Origin: a virus
Strand: one strand, 5' to 3'
Length of the DNA stretch: 29,827 bases
IMG/VR virus record: IMGVR_UViG_3300028837_000440
Coordinates: 1 to 29,827 of that record
In this document: positions 6,511-21,261 of the stretch, piece by piece
Layout: every line of letters begins with the position of its first letter
Position numbering within the stretch: the stretch's first letter is position 1
The notes under the pieces: generated by a model
Seen by the model: only the letters and a program-made list of their open reading frames with translations
The model's database searches: none
Told to the model about the DNA's origin: nothing
Program-made: the position numbers and the translations under genes

Positions 6511-7404
6511 ATGTCTACTACGATGGTATCCCAAAGAGTAGTTAAGCCGTCTGGTCTTAATGATGCTAATTATAAGGTTCTCGTTCCCGTAGAACCTGTG
6601 GACTGGGATGATGGAGATGATGAAGAGCCATTAGGCTTCAGATTTCCAAGGGCTTATGCCCAAACAGGTGATGGTGATTTTTATACATCATCGGAATTTG
6701 GTATTGATGATATGGTTGAGGTCTTTGCTGGAGATTTGATATTGATAACAGGTGATACAAACTATGGGAAGACATCTATAGCGCTAAGTATAATGGGTGA
6801 AAATCTTGACTTGTTACCCACAATCCTTATGGGGAGTGAATATACAGCAGATAACAGGAAGGCAAGCCCGAAATTCAAGCGTAGGATGAGGCGTATGAAT
6901 TGGGTAAACTGGAAAAATGGCGATGGCAAGCGCAGGTTTGAGCTTCTTCCGGTTGGGGCGGACTACGAGGATTATATAGAAGCAGACCACCACAATGTTA
7001 TAGACTGGATTTCGTTGCCTGGGGAATACTACTTGATAGACCGAGTTATGAAGGCAATTAAGGATAGAACTGGGGTTGGCGTTGCTACCCTAGTGCTTCA
7101 AAAGAACAAAGGGCAGGAGTTTGCTGAGGGTGGGCAGAGGTCAGAGCGTTATGCCGATGTCGTGTTAAAGATAGACCCCTTTGGCGAGGGTGAAAGTTTG
7201 CTAACTGTTGGTAAGGTTAAAGCCCCTAAGGGTAGGGCTACTGGTAGAACATTCGCATTTAGCATTGTTGATTATGGGGCTAATCTACACAACATACGAG
7301 AGGTTGTTAAATGCCGCAAATGCTGGGGCAAGGGATATATCAGAAGTGGGCAGAATAACACTAGATGCCCTGAATGTGGTGGTAGGAAATATGTTGATAA
7401 GTAA
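6511..7404 (+). CDS. RecA/DnaB-like ATPase with C-terminal zinc finger
   Basis: This 297-residue protein has Walker A GDTNYGKTS at residues 81-89, preceded by a hydrophobic strand (DLILIT). Later come a strand LVLQKN and a DnaB-like stretch GQRSERYADVVLKI. The C-terminus is a four-Cys zinc finger (CRKC 268-271 and CPEC 286-289 with GKGYI and GGRKYV), like half a DnaJ zinc module. This is the best candidate for the replicative helicase or a RecA-fold recombinase of the phage. The first 60 residues are acidic and lack the DnaB N-terminal domain, so it is a short form. The SD before ATG 6511 is weak. Confidence 0.75.
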   Translation: MSTTMVSQRVVKPSGLNDANYKVLVPVEPVDWDDGDDEEPLGFRFPRAYAQTGDGDFYTSSEFGIDDMVEVFAGDLILITGDTNYGKTSIALSIMGENLDLLPTILMGSEYTADNRKASPKFKRRMRRMNWVNWKNGDGKRRFELLPVGADYEDYIEADHHNVIDWISLPGEYYLIDRVMKAIKDRTGVGVATLVLQKNKGQEFAEGGQRSERYADVVLKIDPFGEGESLLTVGKVKAPKGRATGRTFAFSIVDYGANLHNIREVVKCRKCWGKGYIRSGQNNTRCPECGGRKYVDK

Positions 7405-7433: not shown

Positions 7434-7475
7434 ATGAAGTATCAGATAATATATGCTGAAAGGAGAAGGGGATGA
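7434..7475 (+). CDS. Mini-ORF carrying repeat A (IIYAERR)
   Basis: AAGGAG lies seven bases before ATG 7434. The 13-residue product MKYQIIYAERRRG ends in a TGA that overlaps the next ATG (7472). Bases 7446-7466 are identical to 10701-10721, inside another mini-ORF (MSKIIYAERRY). The repeat includes the SD of the following gene. It may be a translational coupler or a recombination boundary; whether the peptide matters is unknown. Confidence 0.4.
   Translation: MKYQIIYAERRRG
7446..7466 (+). repeat. Direct repeat A, copy 1 (21 bp)
   Basis: Identical over 21 bases to 10701-10721. It contains TATGCTGAAAGGAG, that is, the SD of the downstream gene. It marks the left side of a gene slot whose right side is repeat B (7901-7930). 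Confidence 0.8.
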
Positions 7476-7909
7476 AAAGATTTGATGATGAATTGAGACA
7501 ACTTGTTTTGTTCCACGCACCAGAGCCATTAGTTCACTGTGGGGAATTGGTTACTACTATGTGGGGTGACTGGAAGAGAGAACATAAGGTGATGGTCTAC
7601 CAAGTAGACGCTGTCCTTGTCTCTCTAAGGGGTAATCGAAGGGCGAGAAATGGTGATGAGAGCAATGAGGAGTATGAGAAATACCTGTATGAAAACAAAA
7701 TATCTCGTATGGGGGTAGAAATCCATTACTCTGCCTTGCGACTTGGTAAAAATGGCATCCCAAAAGAAAAATATGGCATATTCTTAGGTAATTTTAAGAC
7801 CGAAGATGGTTATGAATATCAACAAAAGCATGACCACTTTAACCATATTGGGTTGTCCTTCACAATAGATGAAATACCCGAAGAAGATAGATGCCCAATG
7901 GGGCAATGA
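7472..7909 (+). CDS. Phage protein of unknown function in repeat-bounded slot
   Basis: This 145-residue protein starts at ATG 7472 in an ATGA overlap with the mini-ORF; the SD AAAGGAGA lies inside repeat A. The sequence is mixed alpha/beta with conserved-looking aromatic pieces (VHCGELVTTMWGDWKREHKV, KYGIFLGNFKTEDGYEY). No catalytic motif is recognised. It lies between repeat A and repeat B, the same pair that flanks an unrelated gene at 10729-11334, which suggests it is an exchangeable accessory gene. Confidence 0.6.
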   Translation: MKRFDDELRQLVLFHAPEPLVHCGELVTTMWGDWKREHKVMVYQVDAVLVSLRGNRRARNGDESNEEYEKYLYENKISRMGVEIHYSALRLGKNGIPKEKYGIFLGNFKTEDGYEYQQKHDHFNHIGLSFTIDEIPEEDRCPMGQ

Positions 7910-7930
7910 AGTAGAGAGTTAGAGTTATGA
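7901..7930 (+). repeat. Direct repeat B, copy 1
   Basis: Bases 7901-7919 (GGGCAATGAAGTAGAGAGT) are identical to 11321-11339, and 7920-7930 (TAGAGTTATGA) to 11344-11354. The second copy has four extra bases between the two parts. The repeat spans the stop of one gene and the start codon of the following nuclease gene, in different reading frames at the two sites. Confidence 0.8.
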
Positions 7931-8331
7931 AGAAGATTAGTGATGCCGTTCTAGACGATTTAGTTAGAAAGTATGTACGCCTAATCTCTGGTGGTTACTG
8001 TAAGAGGTGTGGGGAGTATGTGGGCATAGAAAACATTGAAGTAGCCCACTTATACCGCAGGGGTAGAAAGACTGTCAGGTGGGATTTAAGAAATGTCTGG
8101 CCTCTGTGTAAGAATAATCTGGCTACGGGCAAGAAGGGGTGTCACCAGACCATAGATGATGACCACATAGAGAAGGTGTCCTTTCAATATGATGTGATGA
8201 CCAAGGATGAGGTTGCTGGGTTAGAGCGAATAGCGACTATGACAGTTAAACAATACCCTATAGACCGAGAAGCAATCAAGGCTAATCTAAAGGAAAAGAT
8301 TAGGTTAATGGAGGTAAATAATGGAAGCTAA
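7927..8331 (+). CDS. NinG-like HNH recombination protein
   Basis: This 134-residue protein has an N-terminal helix followed by a zinc-HNH core: YCKRCGEYV (about 24-32), EVAHLYRRGRKTVRWD with the first catalytic His, RNVWPLCKN and GCHQTIDDDH. This arrangement matches the NinG/Rap family, which act on branched or recombining DNA in lambda-type phages; bare HNH nucleases are an alternative. The start codon is within repeat B. The C-terminal end is helical and overlaps the next gene by 11 bases. Confidence 0.7.
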   Translation: MKKISDAVLDDLVRKYVRLISGGYCKRCGEYVGIENIEVAHLYRRGRKTVRWDLRNVWPLCKNNLATGKKGCHQTIDDDHIEKVSFQYDVMTKDEVAGLERIATMTVKQYPIDREAIKANLKEKIRLMEVNNGS

Positions 8332-8566
8332 AGAGTATATCAGGGAGAAGTGTTGGGGGGAATATGGATGTTCCCCAGATACTGACGGTGGCACTGGATT
8401 TTGTAAAGGGTATGAGGCAGGGATAAGAGAAGTGGTGGAGGATTTAGATAATTTCCTAATGCTACTATTTCTCATAAAGGCAAAAGATGGGAATGTTGAG
8501 GCAATGAGTGTTATTAATCATATAAAAGATAGGGAGCAAGCCAAACTAAAAGAATGGGAGGGATAA
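8321..8566 (+). CDS. Small phage protein, unknown
   Basis: Eighty-one residues, SD TGGAGG. The first 35 residues contain three cysteines (EKCWGEYGCSPDTDGGTGFC) and lead into a helix (KGYEAGIREVVEDLDNFLMLLFLI) and a charged tail. It overlaps the NinG-like gene by 11 bases and is followed directly by the phosphoesterase gene. Confidence 0.55.
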   Translation: MEAKEYIREKCWGEYGCSPDTDGGTGFCKGYEAGIREVVEDLDNFLMLLFLIKAKDGNVEAMSVINHIKDREQAKLKEWEG

Positions 8567-9622
8567 ATGTCACTACCTAAATTAAATTCAAAGGAATGGA
8601 CTGAGGAAGTTAAGTTCTTTGTAGACTCCAGTCAATCTGATAGAGTGAAGAGGGCAAAGAAATATGGTATGCTTGCGTCTTCTTATGAAAGGCGTATGAG
8701 AGAGAGGGGGATTCATTCAGGTGTAAAGGAGCACACAGTAGTTATTGAAAGCGAGGCGGAGCCTATAGTCAATTTACCTCCAGTTGAAATCAGGGAATAC
8801 AAAAAGAAAAAAGCAAGGCGAGGTGATGAGGAAGAGGCTGGGCTTCATATTGGGGATGGACACGCTTGTAAAATAACCCCTTCCTATGATGAGGGTGTCT
8901 ATAAACAGAGAATGGATAATGTGTTTGACTCCACAATGACAATAATAACACTTCATAGGAATATGTATCCAATTAATAGGATACGGGTATTTGATACTGG
9001 AGACAATACTCAAGGCGAGAATCAGTTTCAAGGTTCAGTGATTGGTTCGGTAAGTAGGGGGGCAAGGGACCAAACCACTAAAGTTGCCTTCCCCACCCTT
9101 GTTAAGTTAATTAGTTCATTGAAGCAGGAATTCGCAGAGGTTATCTTTGAGGCATTCCCTGGTAACCATGGTTATGATAGGGGAGCCCCAGAGACCTCAA
9201 GGGAAGACTTGCGATTATATGATTTGTTAAAGGCATACTTTGATGGCAAGAAGGGTATTACAATAAATGTCCACGAAAACTTTGCTGATATTGTTGAAGT
9301 CATGGGGTTTAGGTTTTTTTGTACTCATTTGGATGGCATACAAAGCTATAGTGGTATTCCTCTGTTTGCTATTAAGAGACGGTTGGATGCTTGGTACATT
9401 CAATTTGGTGGCTTTGACTACGCATTGGGCGGACACTTTCACTTCCGTGTTGGTGGTTATGAGATGTCTTCCAAGTATGAATTTTCAATGGTATCAACGC
9501 TGGTCTCGGATGATGAATGGGCATTGAAGAAGCTAGGTATATCATCCCATCCTTCCCAGAATATATTTGGAGTTCACAAAGAAAGGGGGATGACCTGGCG
9601 GTATCCGTTGGATGTGATGTAA
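8567..9622 (+). CDS. Calcineurin-like metallophosphoesterase
   Basis: This protein has 351 residues. After a helical, basic N-terminal 90 residues, the metal-site motifs appear in order: GDGH (96-99), DTGDN (143-147), GNHG (199-202), THLDG (253-257) and GGHFH (288-292). These supply the metal-binding Asp, Asn and His residues of calcineurin-type enzymes. Phage members often resemble DNA repair exonuclease subunits (SbcD/Mre11-like), but the substrate cannot be told from sequence. GNHG replaces the commoner GNHD/E, as often seen in phage versions. The stop overlaps the next start (TAATG). Confidence 0.85.
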   Translation: MSLPKLNSKEWTEEVKFFVDSSQSDRVKRAKKYGMLASSYERRMRERGIHSGVKEHTVVIESEAEPIVNLPPVEIREYKKKKARRGDEEEAGLHIGDGHACKITPSYDEGVYKQRMDNVFDSTMTIITLHRNMYPINRIRVFDTGDNTQGENQFQGSVIGSVSRGARDQTTKVAFPTLVKLISSLKQEFAEVIFEAFPGNHGYDRGAPETSREDLRLYDLLKAYFDGKKGITINVHENFADIVEVMGFRFFCTHLDGIQSYSGIPLFAIKRRLDAWYIQFGGFDYALGGHFHFRVGGYEMSSKYEFSMVSTLVSDDEWALKKLGISSHPSQNIFGVHKERGMTWRYPLDVM

Positions 9623-9786
9623 TGATATTAAGGATAACTTATTGTGAGAACTGCGATGTGGTCAAATATCCTAAAGAGTTTATCACGTGGAAGGGGGAAT
9701 GTGTGAGTTGTAAAAAGAACACATTAAGGATAGCCCTATTTGATACAGAGGGTGATGTTAAAGCATTGCTAAAGGAGGCAAAATGA
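9622..9786 (+). CDS. Small zinc-ribbon protein
   Basis: Fifty-four residues from ATG 9622, the start that gives a TAATG overlap with the phosphoesterase; an upstream in-frame ATG lies within that gene. Two cysteine pairs (CENC at 8-11 and CVSC at 27-30) form a zinc ribbon, with an acidic C-terminal helix (TEGDVKALLKEAK). It may be a partner of the phosphoesterase, judging only by coupling. It overlaps the next gene by ATGA. Confidence 0.65.
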   Translation: MILRITYCENCDVVKYPKEFITWKGECVSCKKNTLRIALFDTEGDVKALLKEAK

Positions 9787-10004
9787 AGTTTGATAAGAAG
9801 ACGCACAAAGTAGACGTAAAAACCCTGAATGACATTGAGACTGGGGTATATCTAAATTTTCTATTGACTGAAAGGATAAGGCATCAAACTACAGTTGAGA
9901 TGTGCGGGGCTTGGATTGAATTCTGGCACAGCGAATTTCAAAGGCAATTAGATGAGGTCTGGAAGATCAATGAGCGGATTAAGCAAGTGAAGGAGAGGAA
10001 ATGA
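9783..10004 (+). CDS. Small phage protein, unknown
   Basis: Seventy-three residues, SD AAAGGAGG, ATGA overlaps at both ends. It is mostly helical and charged (THKVDVKTLNDIETGVYLNF, EFQRQLDEVWKINERIKQVK). No motif is recognised. Confidence 0.55.
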   Translation: MKFDKKTHKVDVKTLNDIETGVYLNFLLTERIRHQTTVEMCGAWIEFWHSEFQRQLDEVWKINERIKQVKERK

Positions 10005-10240
10005 TTGGTTGGATAGGTGTTGCGTTTGGGTTATTGGTGGCACCGCCCCAATTATGGAAGATACTCAAGACGGGCAAGACATCGGGTATCTCCTTGTGTA
10101 CCTATACCTTCTTAGTAGGTGCCTTGATATGCTACTTAGTTCACGCTCTCTATATTAAGGATACAGTATTTATCACAGCACAATCTGTTAATTTAGTTAC
10201 AAACTCTATTATCTTATATTTATTGGTGAAGCGTAAATGA
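10001..10240 (+). CDS. PQ-loop / SemiSWEET-like membrane protein
   Basis: Seventy-nine residues making three membrane helices (about 2-17, 31-51 and 56-76), with the hallmark Pro-Gln pair at the end of helix 1 (VAPPQLWKILKTGKTSGIS) and an Asn in helix 3 (SVNLVTNSII). Length, helix number and the PQ followed by a basic KxxKT and Ser-Ile/Ser-Leu stretch fit a half-transporter of the SemiSWEET/MtN3 or PQ-loop family, which works as a dimer to move sugars or other small solutes. It lies in the early operon, coupled by ATGA to its neighbours. Transport substrate and role in infection are unknown. Confidence 0.7.
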   Translation: MIGWIGVAFGLLVAPPQLWKILKTGKTSGISLCTYTFLVGALICYLVHALYIKDTVFITAQSVNLVTNSIILYLLVKRK

Positions 10241-10317
10241 GTCTTAAGCTATGTAAGGCAGGCTTTATAAAAGGAGGGGGAAATGGACGCATTGGAAAAG
10301 GCAATAGTTCTTATTGA
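10237..10317 (+). CDS. Possible mini-ORF bridging a gap
   Basis: ATG 10237 overlaps the stop of the SemiSWEET-like gene (ATGA). The 26-residue frame (MSLKLCKAGFIKGGGNGRIG...) contains the SD (AAAGGAGGGGG) of the next gene and ends 35 bases inside it in another frame. It is probably a coupling device, or chance. Confidence 0.25.
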   Translation: MSLKLCKAGFIKGGGNGRIGKGNSSY

Positions 10318-10471
10318 TGCAACTAGAAATGAATTAGCTCTGGGAACCAAGCATTACAAGGATGGCAAGCTATTAACCACGCCCCTTGAGATACTTGGGG
10401 CGTTAAGGGATGGTGGGCTAATGATTGAGCCAACACCTAATAGGCAACATTTATTTGGGGTTAAACAATAA
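10283..10471 (+). CDS. Small phage protein, unknown
   Basis: Sixty-two residues with a very strong SD (AAAGGAGGGGG). An N-terminal helix (DALEKAIVLIDATRNELALG) is followed by a loop and a second helix (PLEILGALRDGGLMIEP). No motif is recognised. Confidence 0.55.
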   Translation: MDALEKAIVLIDATRNELALGTKHYKDGKLLTTPLEILGALRDGGLMIEPTPNRQHLFGVKQ

Positions 10472-10482
10472 GTAGTGCGACT

Positions 10483-10695
10483 ATGAGAACAAAGGGAAGT
10501 AAGAACAAGGTATCATTACCGGAAAGAGAACGCATCTTTTCCGATACGGGATGTGACTTATATCCGACTTGTTTAGGCAATGAGGAATATCCACAGTGTC
10601 CTTTTAGTGTATGTATTGAAGACCTTAATGACCCTGAAAGTGAAATGTATGATAAGGAAATAGCACGGGCTTTACTGAAATGGTTTAAGAGATGA
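10483..10695 (+). CDS. Small four-Cys protein
   Basis: Seventy residues. A basic N-terminus (MRTKGSKNKVSLPERER) precedes four cysteines (C24, C30, then CPFSVC at 39-44) and an acidic segment IEDLNDPESEMYD. The CPxxxC followed by a short Asp-containing stretch recurs in small phage and bacterial proteins that probably bind zinc. The SD is weak. The stop overlaps the mini-ORF start (ATGA at 10692). Confidence 0.55.
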   Translation: MRTKGSKNKVSLPERERIFSDTGCDLYPTCLGNEEYPQCPFSVCIEDLNDPESEMYDKEIARALLKWFKR

Positions 10696-10727
10696 GTAAA
10701 ATAATATATGCTGAAAGGAGATATTAA
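10692..10727 (+). CDS. Mini-ORF carrying repeat A (IIYAERR), second copy
   Basis: ATG 10692 overlaps the previous stop (ATGA). The 11-residue product MSKIIYAERRY shares IIYAERR with the mini-ORF at 7434-7475 because both contain repeat A. It ends one base before the next ATG (10729). Probably a coupler or part of a cassette boundary. Confidence 0.35.
   Translation: MSKIIYAERRY
10701..10721 (+). repeat. Direct repeat A, copy 2 (21 bp)
   Basis: Identical to 7446-7466. It includes the SD AAAGGAGA of the gene starting at 10729 and marks the left side of the second repeat-bounded slot. Confidence 0.8.
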
Positions 10728-10728
10728 A

Positions 10729-11334
10729 ATGGAAGAAGTTAAACTATCAGATGCGATGACATTGGTAACTCATGTATGGAGTCGTGGTAGAAAGGTAAAA
10801 CCATTCTCCGAAGCAAGATTTAGAGCTACATTGCACGATGCTTTAGAACTTGCCATTATAGGCGGGCTGAATTTTGATATTGATGATTGCTCTAAATTCC
10901 CTGATGCCTTTTCTTGGGGGGCTGGATATTATAAAGAGCAATTACTCTCTTTTGATGATTACTCCTACACACTAGCCATAGTCGCTAGTAATATATCCGC
11001 CTGCCATTCCTTTGAACACTACCACAACAGGAAACCGTTTATCATAAAACAAGTTGACCATAATTACCAGATGTTACGTAGCATGCCAGGGCGATGGGAT
11101 ATTACAAGACCCCGTGACAGGTTAGGGATAGGCTCAAAGTTCACATGGCAAGGCAATAAGGTAACTGTAACCAGTTTTGACGACAAGAACGGCAAGGTTA
11201 TTGCTTGCTCATATAAGCCAAGAGAACGTGAAGTGCCTTGCCCTTCCTGTGGTAGGGGCGGATGGGAAACGGGAACACTCAAGGTTGAACATATCTATAA
11301 ACTAACCAACCAAGATTTAAGGGCAATGAAGTAG
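10729..11334 (+). CDS. Phage protein of unknown function in repeat-bounded slot
   Basis: This protein has 201 residues from ATG 10729; upstream in-frame ATG 10708 precedes the SD and is rejected. The first 120 residues are helical with many aromatics (AFSWGAGYYKEQLLSFDDYS, ACHSFEHYHNRKPFI). Then comes a beta-rich part (GIGSKFTWQGNKVTVTSFDDKNG) and a single CPSCGRGGWETG knuckle near residues 171-182. No known family is recognised. It is unrelated in sequence to the gene at 7472-7909, though both lie between repeats A and B. Confidence 0.6.
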   Translation: MEEVKLSDAMTLVTHVWSRGRKVKPFSEARFRATLHDALELAIIGGLNFDIDDCSKFPDAFSWGAGYYKEQLLSFDDYSYTLAIVASNISACHSFEHYHNRKPFIIKQVDHNYQMLRSMPGRWDITRPRDRLGIGSKFTWQGNKVTVTSFDDKNGKVIACSYKPREREVPCPSCGRGGWETGTLKVEHIYKLTNQDLRAMK

Positions 11335-11354
11335 AGAGTGATATAGAGTTATGA
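11321..11354 (+). repeat. Direct repeat B, copy 2
   Basis: The first 19 bases match 7901-7919 exactly. After a four-base insertion (GATA, 11340-11343), 11344-11354 match 7920-7930. It again spans the end of the slot gene and the start codon of the following nuclease gene. Confidence 0.8.
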
Positions 11355-12001
11355 CTAAAATTGACTGGTTGCCTGAACAATTAAAGCGGTCAAATGATGG
11401 ACATATCTTGAGGCCATTGGTTTGCTCAGACTGTGGTGAAACCCATTGGGTAAGACCTAATAGTAGAAAAACCGATTTATGTTATCGGTGTAGTTCTGCC
11501 CTTAATGGGCGTAGATTTCACAAAACACATAGTGGCAAGTTAAGTCCTAGTTGGAATGGAGGCAAAGTAGCTAGAGTATGCAAACAATGTAAGCATATAT
11601 TTTATGTTTATCCTGCCCTTGTTAGGTATGGGTATGGTGGATTTTGTTCCCATTCTTGTAAAATGGATTACCAACACCGGCACGGGGGGTTTAATTACCG
11701 CAGTAGGCCGACTAAGCCTGAGCGTTTGGTTATGCGGTTGTTGGAGGAAGCTAAACTGCCATTCAAGTATGTTGGAGATGGGAAGGTTTGGCTCGGCAAA
11801 TGCAACCCAGATTTTATTAACTATAATGGCAAGAAACAGGTTATTGAAGTTTTCGGAGTTTATTGGCATCCGATATTTGATGTAGCCCAAAGGATGGAAG
11901 CATTCCGCCAATATGGGTTTAATACTTTAATTATATGGCAGGATGAGTTAGTAAATGAAAGACTTGTATTAAAAAAGCTTAAGAAATTTGCGAGGAGTTG
12001 A
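11351..12001 (+). CDS. Vsr-like homing-type endonuclease with zinc fingers
   Basis: This 216-residue protein has an N-terminal part with three zinc knuckle groups (CSDC and CYRC, CKQC, then CSHSC). The region between is basic and aromatic (HSGKLSPSWNGGKVARVC), as in DNA-binding modules of phage homing enzymes. Residues about 122-216 form a Vsr/PD-(D/E)xK-like domain: KPERLVMRLLEEAKLPF, NPDFINYNGKKQVIEVFGVYWH and the end LIIWQDELV. The Asp of NPDF, Glu of IEV and the His are the likely active-site residues. Such proteins are free-standing homing endonucleases related to very-short-patch repair enzymes. The start codon lies in repeat B. Confidence 0.75.
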   Translation: MTKIDWLPEQLKRSNDGHILRPLVCSDCGETHWVRPNSRKTDLCYRCSSALNGRRFHKTHSGKLSPSWNGGKVARVCKQCKHIFYVYPALVRYGYGGFCSHSCKMDYQHRHGGFNYRSRPTKPERLVMRLLEEAKLPFKYVGDGKVWLGKCNPDFINYNGKKQVIEVFGVYWHPIFDVAQRMEAFRQYGFNTLIIWQDELVNERLVLKKLKKFARS

Positions 12002-12220
12002 ATGACAAAGCCAATAGATTATTTACCTGAACAGCTTAAGACATCCAAGAATTTATGCGACATATCCCTTTTGCTTATAGAAACAGGAAACCGTCACCTC
12101 TTGGCAACGGTTTTAGAATTGTTATTTGAGCAAGTTACTCAGATTACAGAGGAAAATTGCGTGGTTAATCCTCTTTCGGGAACGCAGACCCGCATCTCCG
12201 GCACTGAAAATCGTGAGTAG
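12002..12220 (+). CDS. Small protein sharing N-terminal motif with upstream nuclease
   Basis: Seventy-two residues starting right after the nuclease stop. Its first 14 residues (MTKPIDYLPEQLKTSK) repeat the start of the nuclease (MTKIDWLPEQLKRS). The rest differs: a helical stretch DISLLLIETGNRHLLATVLELLFEQVTQI and a polar tail. It may be a degenerate duplicate whose nuclease part was lost, or a small protein using the same interaction motif. It is the last plus-strand gene before the convergent minus-strand cluster. Confidence 0.5.
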   Translation: MTKPIDYLPEQLKTSKNLCDISLLLIETGNRHLLATVLELLFEQVTQITEENCVVNPLSGTQTRISGTENRE

Positions 12221-15514: not shown

Positions 15515-15892
15515 ATGCCTTATACGGACATAGAAAAGCGTAGGGAGAACCAACGAGAATACTATCAACGACACCGCAGTGAGAGATTAGCTTATCGCAA
15601 GTCTCATCGTGCCATTGATAGGGAGACTTGGAGGCGTTGGGCTATAGCCAACCCCGAGCAGCGTATGGCTCACTTACGCAAATACAAAGCTGAGCACCCA
15701 GAATATACCAGGATATATCAAGGGACTAAATATAGAAGAACAGCCAAACGGGGGCTTCTTGAGATATGCAATTGTGGCGAGGTGGTAGGATTACACGTTC
15801 ACCACAAAGATGGCGATAACCATAATGGCGAATTAGCAAACTTGGAGTGGTTATGTCCTTCTTGTCATAGCAAGGTGCATGCAAATCCCTAG
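15515..15892 (+). CDS. HNH endonuclease
   Basis: This 125-residue protein has a very basic N-terminal 70 residues made of Arg/Tyr-rich helices (RRENQREYYQRHRSERLAYR), typical of phage HNH proteins. The HNH core is at about 85-123: CNCGE, VHHKDGDNHNGELANLEWLC, then CPSCHSKVH. It is likely a free-standing homing endonuclease or DNA-nicking enzyme. The SD is weak. It is followed by a 198-base region without a clear gene. Confidence 0.75.
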   Translation: MPYTDIEKRRENQREYYQRHRSERLAYRKSHRAIDRETWRRWAIANPEQRMAHLRKYKAEHPEYTRIYQGTKYRRTAKRGLLEICNCGEVVGLHVHHKDGDNHNGELANLEWLCPSCHSKVHANP

Positions 15893-16782: not shown

Positions 16783-17274
16783 ATGAAACTAACACAAAAA
16801 CGAGTGAATAGTAAAAATTATATCTGGCACGCCTGTATAGACTGTGGAAGGGAAAGGTGGGTTGCTACCTATACTGATGGGACGACAAAGTGGTTTAGGT
16901 GTAAGAGTTGTGGCGGTAAGCAAGCGAGCATGAAGCGTGACATTAAGGGAGAGAATCACCCGGGATGGCAGGGTGGTGGCTATAGGCATAGTCAGGGCTA
17001 TATGATGGTTTACCTAGACCCTAGCGATTCTCTTTACCCTATGGCTAATGGGCTTCATTATGTTCTTGAGCATCGGTTAATGGTGGCAAGGTCGTTGGGT
17101 AGATGTCTTCAGCCTCAAGAAGTAGTCCATCATAAGAATGGTATTAGGGGTGATAATCGCTTAGAGAACCTAGAGTTATTTGACTCCCATAGGCAACATA
17201 TGAGAGAACATTCCCGGGGATACAAGGATGGTTATGAGCAGGGATTGATAGATGGAAGAAGAGCAGCGAAATAA
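16783..17274 (+). CDS. HNH endonuclease with N-terminal zinc finger
   Basis: This 163-residue protein has a zinc ribbon at residues 18-44 (CIDC, CKSC). A segment IKGENHPGWQGGGYRHSQGY then leads to an HNH domain: LHYVLEHRLMVARSLGR, QEVVHHKNGIRGDNRLENLE and the His-rich end SHRQHMREHS. This is the plan of phage HNH homing endonucleases. The C-terminal tail SRGYKDGYEQGLIDGRR shares a Tyr/Gly-repeat motif with the gene at 23108-23356. It lies directly upstream of the terminase genes, where HNH proteins often assist packaging. Confidence 0.8.
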   Translation: MKLTQKRVNSKNYIWHACIDCGRERWVATYTDGTTKWFRCKSCGGKQASMKRDIKGENHPGWQGGGYRHSQGYMMVYLDPSDSLYPMANGLHYVLEHRLMVARSLGRCLQPQEVVHHKNGIRGDNRLENLELFDSHRQHMREHSRGYKDGYEQGLIDGRRAAK

Positions 17275-17986: not shown

Positions 17987-17997
17987 AGGAGGGAGCA

Positions 17998-18117
17998 ATG
18001 AGAATCAGGTTATACAGCAACTCGAAAGGAGCTGGATGGATGGGATGGATAGAGAACTGCAAGGGGCAGGTTGCTGGGTTTATTCGCCTTGATGGTTCTG
18101 TAAGCTGGGAATGGTAA
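17998..18117 (+). CDS. 39-residue conserved small protein, copy 1
   Basis: Product of 39 residues with strong SD (AAAGGAGGG): MRIRLYSN, then GAGWMGWIENCKGQVAGFIR and LDGSVSWEW. A closely similar 39-residue gene lies at 21142-21261 after the portal and its neighbours (shared GWMGWIENCK and GFIRLDGS...WEW). Retention of both copies with intact SDs and frames suggests selection. The sequence looks like a small beta-sheet protein; no function is known to me. Confidence 0.65.
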   Translation: MRIRLYSNSKGAGWMGWIENCKGQVAGFIRLDGSVSWEW

Positions 18118-21063: not shown

Positions 21064-21142
21064 ATACTTCAATAAGCTGGAGAAGGCGTTTCCATACTCT
21101 AAGTTAAATTCATTATACAATAGGTATGTAAAGGAGGAGTGA
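20921..21142 (+). CDS. Coiled-coil small protein in overlapping frame
   Basis: Up to 73 residues from ATG 20921 (ATG 20927 or 20933 also possible), read +1 relative to the zinc-knuckle gene over about 140 bases. Residues look natural: TIAELNQVIQILESSIPANP, then RRRLEKELNKYFNKLEKAF and YSKLNSLYNRYVKEE, an amphipathic helix. It runs on 79 bases past the end of the other gene and contains the SD of the next. A true overlapping gene, or one beginning near 21009 with an internal start, are both possible. Confidence 0.45.
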   Translation: MTMEMTLNTQTIAELNQVIQILESSIPANPNSLKNREKRRRLEKELNKYFNKLEKAFPYSKLNSLYNRYVKEE

Positions 21143-21261
21143 TGAAGGTAAGGCTATATAGTAACCCAAAGGGAACAGGATGGATGGGCTGGATTGAGAA
21201 CTGCAAAGAGCAAGTTCTTGGTTTTATTCGCCTTGACGGTTCTCTAGTTTGGGAATGGTAG
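21142..21261 (+). CDS. 39-residue conserved small protein, copy 2
   Basis: Same length as 17998-18117 and closely similar: MKVRLYSNPKGTGWMGWIEN, then CKEQVLGFIRLDGSLVWEW. SD AAAGGAGGAG. The copies bracket the large terminase, portal and two small genes, so they may be remnants of a tandem or transposed duplication. Intact and probably functional. Confidence 0.65.
   Translation: MKVRLYSNPKGTGWMGWIENCKEQVLGFIRLDGSLVWEW

Follow-up and report, generated by a model that had tools for sequence, protein, structure and literature searches.

How do two unrelated genes of one phage come to lie in the same frame of short repeats? In the window, i.e., the whole 29,827-nt stretch of the virus record that was analyzed, a left repeat (L) precedes and a right repeat (R) follows each of two genes. 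The first-pass annotation had reported repeats around these genes, and this holds: two exact copies of L (ATAATATATGCTGAAAGGAGA) lie at 7446-7466 and 10701-10721, and two of the core of R (GGGCAATGAAGTAGAGAGT) at 7901-7919 and 11321-11339, with an expectation of 0 in shuffled sequences for either repeat. At the place of a gap of 4 nt in the first R, the second contains GATA and, as also noted before, the start ATG of the next gene lies within R in both slots (7927 and 11351). No further copy of L is present in the window at up to three mismatches. A weight-matrix scan of the window returned exactly two L and two R sites, while all remaining scores fall within the null. A free-standing repeat family in the window was rejected, since there are just these two L and two R sites. 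The two enclosed proteins, earlier described as unlike each other, indeed show no mutual match. They belong to no significant Pfam or PHROG family and have no relatives among viral contigs in a peptide-pattern search. The structure predicted for cargo gene 2, for which no relatives were at hand, is unusable (pLDDT 40); this gene also has an in-frame ATG inside L, at 10708.

Both repeats stem from one gene. Scanning the viral collection with L and R retrieved intact genes for MT-A70 (PF05063) DNA adenine methylases that read MKKYQIIYADPPW...GWDCWGNEVESDIEL-stop, in which L and R occupy the 5' and 3' end, respectively, of a single ORF. Such intact methylases (in L033, L034, L028, L011, L044, L048 and others; labels of this form denote other virus contigs compared with the window) begin with M-KKYQIIYADPPW and share the same C-terminus, and a protein-based search yielded more than 570 methylase relatives with the same end motifs. 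At the DNA level, ATGAAGAAGTATCAGATAATATATGCTGA (CCCACCTTGG) holds L up to GCTGA, and TGGGGCAATGAAGTAGAGAGTGATATAGAGTTATGA equals R. L consists of about nine first methylase codons fused to a Shine-Dalgarno sequence, and R of about eleven last codons together with the start of the next gene, which overlaps them. R carries this start codon because the gene 3' of an intact methylase often starts in an ATGA overlap of the methylase stop. L and R are the 5' and 3' ends of a single MT-A70 DNA adenine methylase gene, of which the window contains neither an intact copy nor an intact domain, just two pairs of ends, here called scars (Table 1). The earlier proposal of a plug-in cargo site was thus essentially right, but it had missed that the repeats are methylase gene ends rather than free-standing cassette ends.

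Table 1. Features of the two slots in the window and their immediate neighbors.
Feature	Position	Strand	Basis
RecA/RadA/KaiC-fold ATPase directly 5' of slot 1	6511..7404	+	Model pLDDT 83; fold match RadA/RecA/KaiC
L scar 1: MT-A70 ORF 5' end ATGAAGTATCAGATAATATATGCTGA (7434-7459) and Shine-Dalgarno AAGGAGA (7460-7466)	7434..7466	+	Same sequence opens intact MT-A70 genes; repeat test
Micro-ORF MKYQIIYAERRRG-stop, its TGA overlapping the cargo start ATG as ATGA	7434..7475	+	In-frame start retention across L scars
Cargo gene 1, 145 aa, orphan; starts directly after L, stop TGA from R	7472..7909	+	ORF; stop within R
R scar 1: MT-A70 ORF 3' end (GNEVES..EL, 4-nt deletion) and start codon of next gene	7901..7930	+	
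NinG/Rap-like HNH nuclease gene directly 3' of R scar 1	7927..8331	+	phrog_5034 E 1.6e-9
L scar 2: ATGAGTAAAATAATATATGCTGA and AAGGAGA; micro-ORF MSKIIYAERRY-stop at 10692-10727	10692..10721	+	
Cargo gene 2, 201 aa, orphan; stop TAG from R (ends ..RAMK-stop)	10729..11334	+	ORF; stop within R
R scar 2: full-length MT-A70 ORF 3' end (GNEVESDIEL-stop) and start codon of next gene	11321..11354	+	
Vsr/EDxHD homing-endonuclease-like gene directly 3' of R scar 2	11351..12001	+	Pfam Vsr E 0.007, under the curated cut-off; PDB 3r3p E 0.025

In 80 loci with intact MT-A70 genes picked by protein, no scars were found nearby beyond the ends of those genes themselves; the scars are therefore restricted to a limited phage group. 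In cultured phages, L or R gave matches just at E about 7, e.g., in T4 internal-protein genes. The search for a prophage or host match of L in GTDB genomes gave one hit, in Lachnospiraceae, which reads as chance, and the R matches in L030, L035, L015 and L021 lie by chance within unrelated genes. Taken by itself, the downstream half of L (GAAAGGAGAAGGGGATG) is non-specific, since it is often found as a strong ribosome-binding leader in prophages that are unrelated. In three such prophages (L207, L238 and L262), this leader occurs 3-4 times per contig before different genes, in the manner of start-associated sequences.

A survey of 42 records revealed L-type scars in 24 and R in 29 of them. About twenty L...R slots have non-MT-A70 content, mostly one gene on the same strand, and R lies on the same strand 60-1200 nt downstream of L in 20 of the 27 L scars, where 1.8 are expected. 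The first-pass annotation had anticipated that the same pair of repeats encloses many different genes in other virus contigs. This is borne out, as no two of the 21 cargo proteins compared are related, the set being made up of the L...R slots and three R-bounded genes with a variant L or none (the L012 chimera, L017 and L037). Assigned cargos are a DUF4326 protein (L007), an N6/N4 DNA methylase (L041), an HNH protein (L037) and, below the Pfam cut-off, an ASCH-like protein (L023); a radical-SAM-like (L038) and a methylase-like protein (L017) likewise score under the cut-off. The cargo families of L038 and L041 occur outside slots too. Both methylase ends are in frame with the L012 cargo and fused to it (MKKYQIYADLPW...GNEVESEL-stop). 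R is joined directly to L in L014 and L024, and successive genes each end in R in L012, L016 and L008. The window gene at 10283-10471 has a relative in L008 that ends in R. The ATPase family found upstream of slot 1 precedes slots with other cargos in L029, L032 and L042, i.e., four different cargos including that of the window. The window ATPase itself has a cysteine-rich C-terminal tail, and a tblastn comparison with cultured viruses gave relatives only in Methanosarcina virus MetMV and a Methanomicrobiales virus. Different genes of this phage group also have further short start tags in common, namely MEAKDTVM (about 25 nt) and DRPDREKIA (about 23 nt), with sites in L007 (2329 and 4028), L031, L042, L046 and others, as well as in the window (4500), L004, L022 and L041.

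The frame supplies start and stop signals, as had been recognized from the window. Each of the three reading frames has a stop within R, where about two thirds of the non-methylase genes that end at this repeat terminate. Of all the roughly 33 non-methylase genes with their end at R, 12 use TAG in one frame (..GAMK-stop) and 8 use TGA in another (..Q-stop), a few read on in the frame of the methylase, and about ten end a little upstream. L provides a Shine-Dalgarno sequence and usually a micro-ORF (e.g., MKKYQIIYAERRRG-stop), which often overlaps the cargo start as ATGA, the form also present in slot 1 of the window. An in-frame start has been retained in 24 of 31 L scars (chance 41%, P 4e-5), and this start is ATG in 21 (chance 20%, P 1e-8); the natural reading is that translation of the micro-ORF is coupled to that of the cargo. 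With a ribosome-binding site and micro-ORF in L and three-frame stops in R, nearly any inserted ORF should therefore be readable.

Pairwise comparisons show where homology begins and ends. L009 and L044 have 64 nt in common at 97% identity, ending at GCTGA, after which L009 continues with an 85-aa gene and L044 with an intact methylase; the common stretch includes the tail of the preceding gene, the body of which differs between both contigs. Around 11252-11290 of L044, a gene tail (..ALIEKVRELFE-stop) is retained while its body has been replaced by another gene, and end remnants therefore go beyond the methylase. At the other side of the frame, R and the NinG gene are common to L008 and L041 (397 nt, 75%), with the common stretch starting at R and a different cargo before it. 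The 4-nt deletion in R, which breaks the methylase frame, recurs in three contexts (window slot 1, L014 and L025), and the joint GCTGA/AAGGAG is found at more than 20 L sites, TGAAAGGAG being rare elsewhere. The common deletion and common joint in unrelated contexts indicate that the scars themselves have spread and have been inherited as scars. The left joints of L028, L029, L038, L089 and L012 differ (e.g., GCTGACC/A.. or GCTGACCCA/..), which points to several independent original replacements rather than exchange at one common L. Near-identical genomes that differ in their cargo were not found, and strain pairs are identical at the slot. Identical contigs from independent samples have the same arrangement and the same cargo, which makes an assembly artefact unlikely. 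A codon-level test for methylase ends homogenized by recombination gave only a mild elevation for L, while R itself was ascertained by sequence. Annealing recombinases of the Rad52 or ERF type are encoded in only 4 of 36 records, which are fragmentary contigs, and in none of the cases by the window.

We propose, with a probability of roughly 0.7, that both slots are sites of gene replacement between the two ends that remain of a lost MT-A70 gene, that cargos are swapped via short-homology recombination, and that the scars spread and are reused as crossovers. The ends of the methylase gene would have served as the first crossover points. They would be conserved because they encode the start of the catalytic motif and an invariant C-terminal tail and because they overlap the neighboring genes. 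Swaps would take place in mixed infections, through phage-encoded recombination that tolerates 15-35 nt of homology, and the scars, once made, would have spread and acted as crossover points themselves. That the exchange proceeds by short-homology recombination is inferred. Relaxed homologous recombination by phage recombinases is established, with a minimum of about 30 nt for Red-beta (PMC3945230; PMC2327257), a requirement that would fit the tract lengths of L and R. A more far-reaching form of this proposal is a doubtful possibility: here the methylase ends would be a true reusable exchange site and the L...R frames general expression slots, between which phage or host recombination preferentially trades single ORFs, a recombinase-free analogue of the integron cassette.

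The slots may instead be passive relics, left when the methylase was repeatedly replaced by illegitimate recombination, in which case the scars would have no role in later exchange and the ends would persist solely through their overlap with neighbor genes and the translation signals of these. The varied left junctions speak for this account, as do the start and stop signals that the neighbors need and the lack of an observed strain-level swap. However, one and the same left joint at more than 20 sites and one deletion in three contexts argue for scars that were passed around, not made anew, and both flanks and cargo reassort about the scars; we therefore consider relics of this kind unlikely. 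Homing is a further candidate: nucleases encoded after R would cleave close to the ends of the methylase gene, and a slot-bearing phage would then serve as repair template, so that cargo takes the place of the methylase. Indeed, a nuclease gene directly follows both window slots, and the left break lies within the codons for the conserved DPPW motif, probably the kind of site that is typical of homing targets. The first-pass annotation had noted a nuclease gene after each of the two slots, yet in the wider set a recognizable nuclease gene comes directly after only 6 of the 35 distinct R sites, whereas homing would predict a regular link. The families differ as well, being NinG-like in window slot 1, L008, L032 and L041, VRR-NUC in L007 and Vsr-like in window slot 2; the labels given earlier to the two window genes are both fair, though the second, Vsr- or I-Bth0305I-like, is weak. 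The NinG of phage lambda, moreover, is a recombination junction nuclease and no homing enzyme. The replication region of these phages is rich in NinG, HNH and VRR-NUC genes, and since the R sites lie in the replication/recombination region, nucleases are to be expected in their proximity. Homing is a very improbable general origin of the slots, though it may account for single cases. Three more HNH endonuclease genes lie outside the slots (1508-2032, 15515-15892 and 16783-17274 of the window). The ORF after the Vsr-like gene (12002-12220) opens with MTKPIDYLPEQLK, which resembles the MTKIDWLPEQLK of the nuclease itself, and then diverges; its start is possibly another gene-start remnant or copy. 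Elsewhere in the window, a 78% direct repeat (17992-18116 and 21136-21260) with two paralogous 39-aa ORFs (MRIRLYSNSKGAGWMGW.. and MKVRLYSNPKGTGWMGW..) flanks the terminase and portal genes.

A dedicated site-specific cassette system resembling integrons, with R or the R-L junction as recombination site, would account for the attC-like overlap of R with every cargo stop, for the repetition of R after successive genes, and for its direct junction to L. Tyrosine recombinases, however, are encoded in only 2 of 36 records, which are incomplete contigs, and neither R nor L has an evident palindromic core, both being plain methylase coding sequence; we regard such a system as extremely unlikely. Even harder to uphold is the notion that the repeats are translation signals of the Start-Associated-Sequence kind, retained for expression and not for exchange. 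L does lie directly before start codons, with a strong Shine-Dalgarno sequence and a putatively coupled micro-ORF, but this leaves unexplained R, the pairing of L with R and their common origin in one gene, and the conservation of L reaches upstream of the ribosome-binding site.

Replacement between the methylase ends provides, for a group of uncultured phages, a concrete case of how phages may swap single genes. It also offers a means of finding accessory genes, as a position between methylase ends marks any content as a candidate swapped gene. The methylase itself may point to restriction evasion as a common theme; 2 of the 21 cargos are other methylase-like proteins.

Several known systems share part of this architecture. 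In integron gene cassettes, a single ORF with no promoter lies between short recombination sites, which overlap its stop codon. The slots are alike in enclosing single ORFs between short sites overlapping the stop, but no integrase is common to the records and no folded attC-like site is evident. The Start-Associated Sequences of cluster K mycobacteriophages (PMC3203893) are short repeats directly before the start codons of different gene families, a description that L fits; no paired right-hand repeat figures in it, whereas L and R are paired and derive from one gene. In T-even phages (reviewed in PMC3012670, citing Repoila 1994 and Tetart 1998), the internal-protein genes encode highly diverse proteins with nothing but a conserved N-terminal stretch in common, and tail-fiber swaps use conserved motifs as crossover points. 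The conserved N-terminus of the internal proteins is a functional packaging signal, while the ends described here are remnants of an unrelated enzyme gene, mostly outside the cargo frame. A further parallel is the mosaic joint with short boundary sequences (De Paepe 2014, PMC3945230; PMC3029335), where short homology lies at both module edges, consistent with relaxed phage recombination that needs about 30 nt; the idea of such boundaries is already known. Here, too, the same boundary flanks different modules across genomes, and it is at the boundary that homology sets in or breaks off (at L in L009/L044, at R in L008/L041). It has long been asked whether mosaic joints arise by short-homology recombination at boundaries or by random illegitimate joining followed by selection, and part of the difficulty is that most joints have no boundary sequences that can be identified (PMC3029335). 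With both boundaries identified, a one-gene origin and about twenty contents, the two models predict different testable outcomes. What sets the present case apart from the joints described before is that its two boundaries are opposite ends of one displaced gene, with many unrelated single genes between them; to judge from the literature searched, such a pair of gene ends around about twenty unrelated genes is a new finding.
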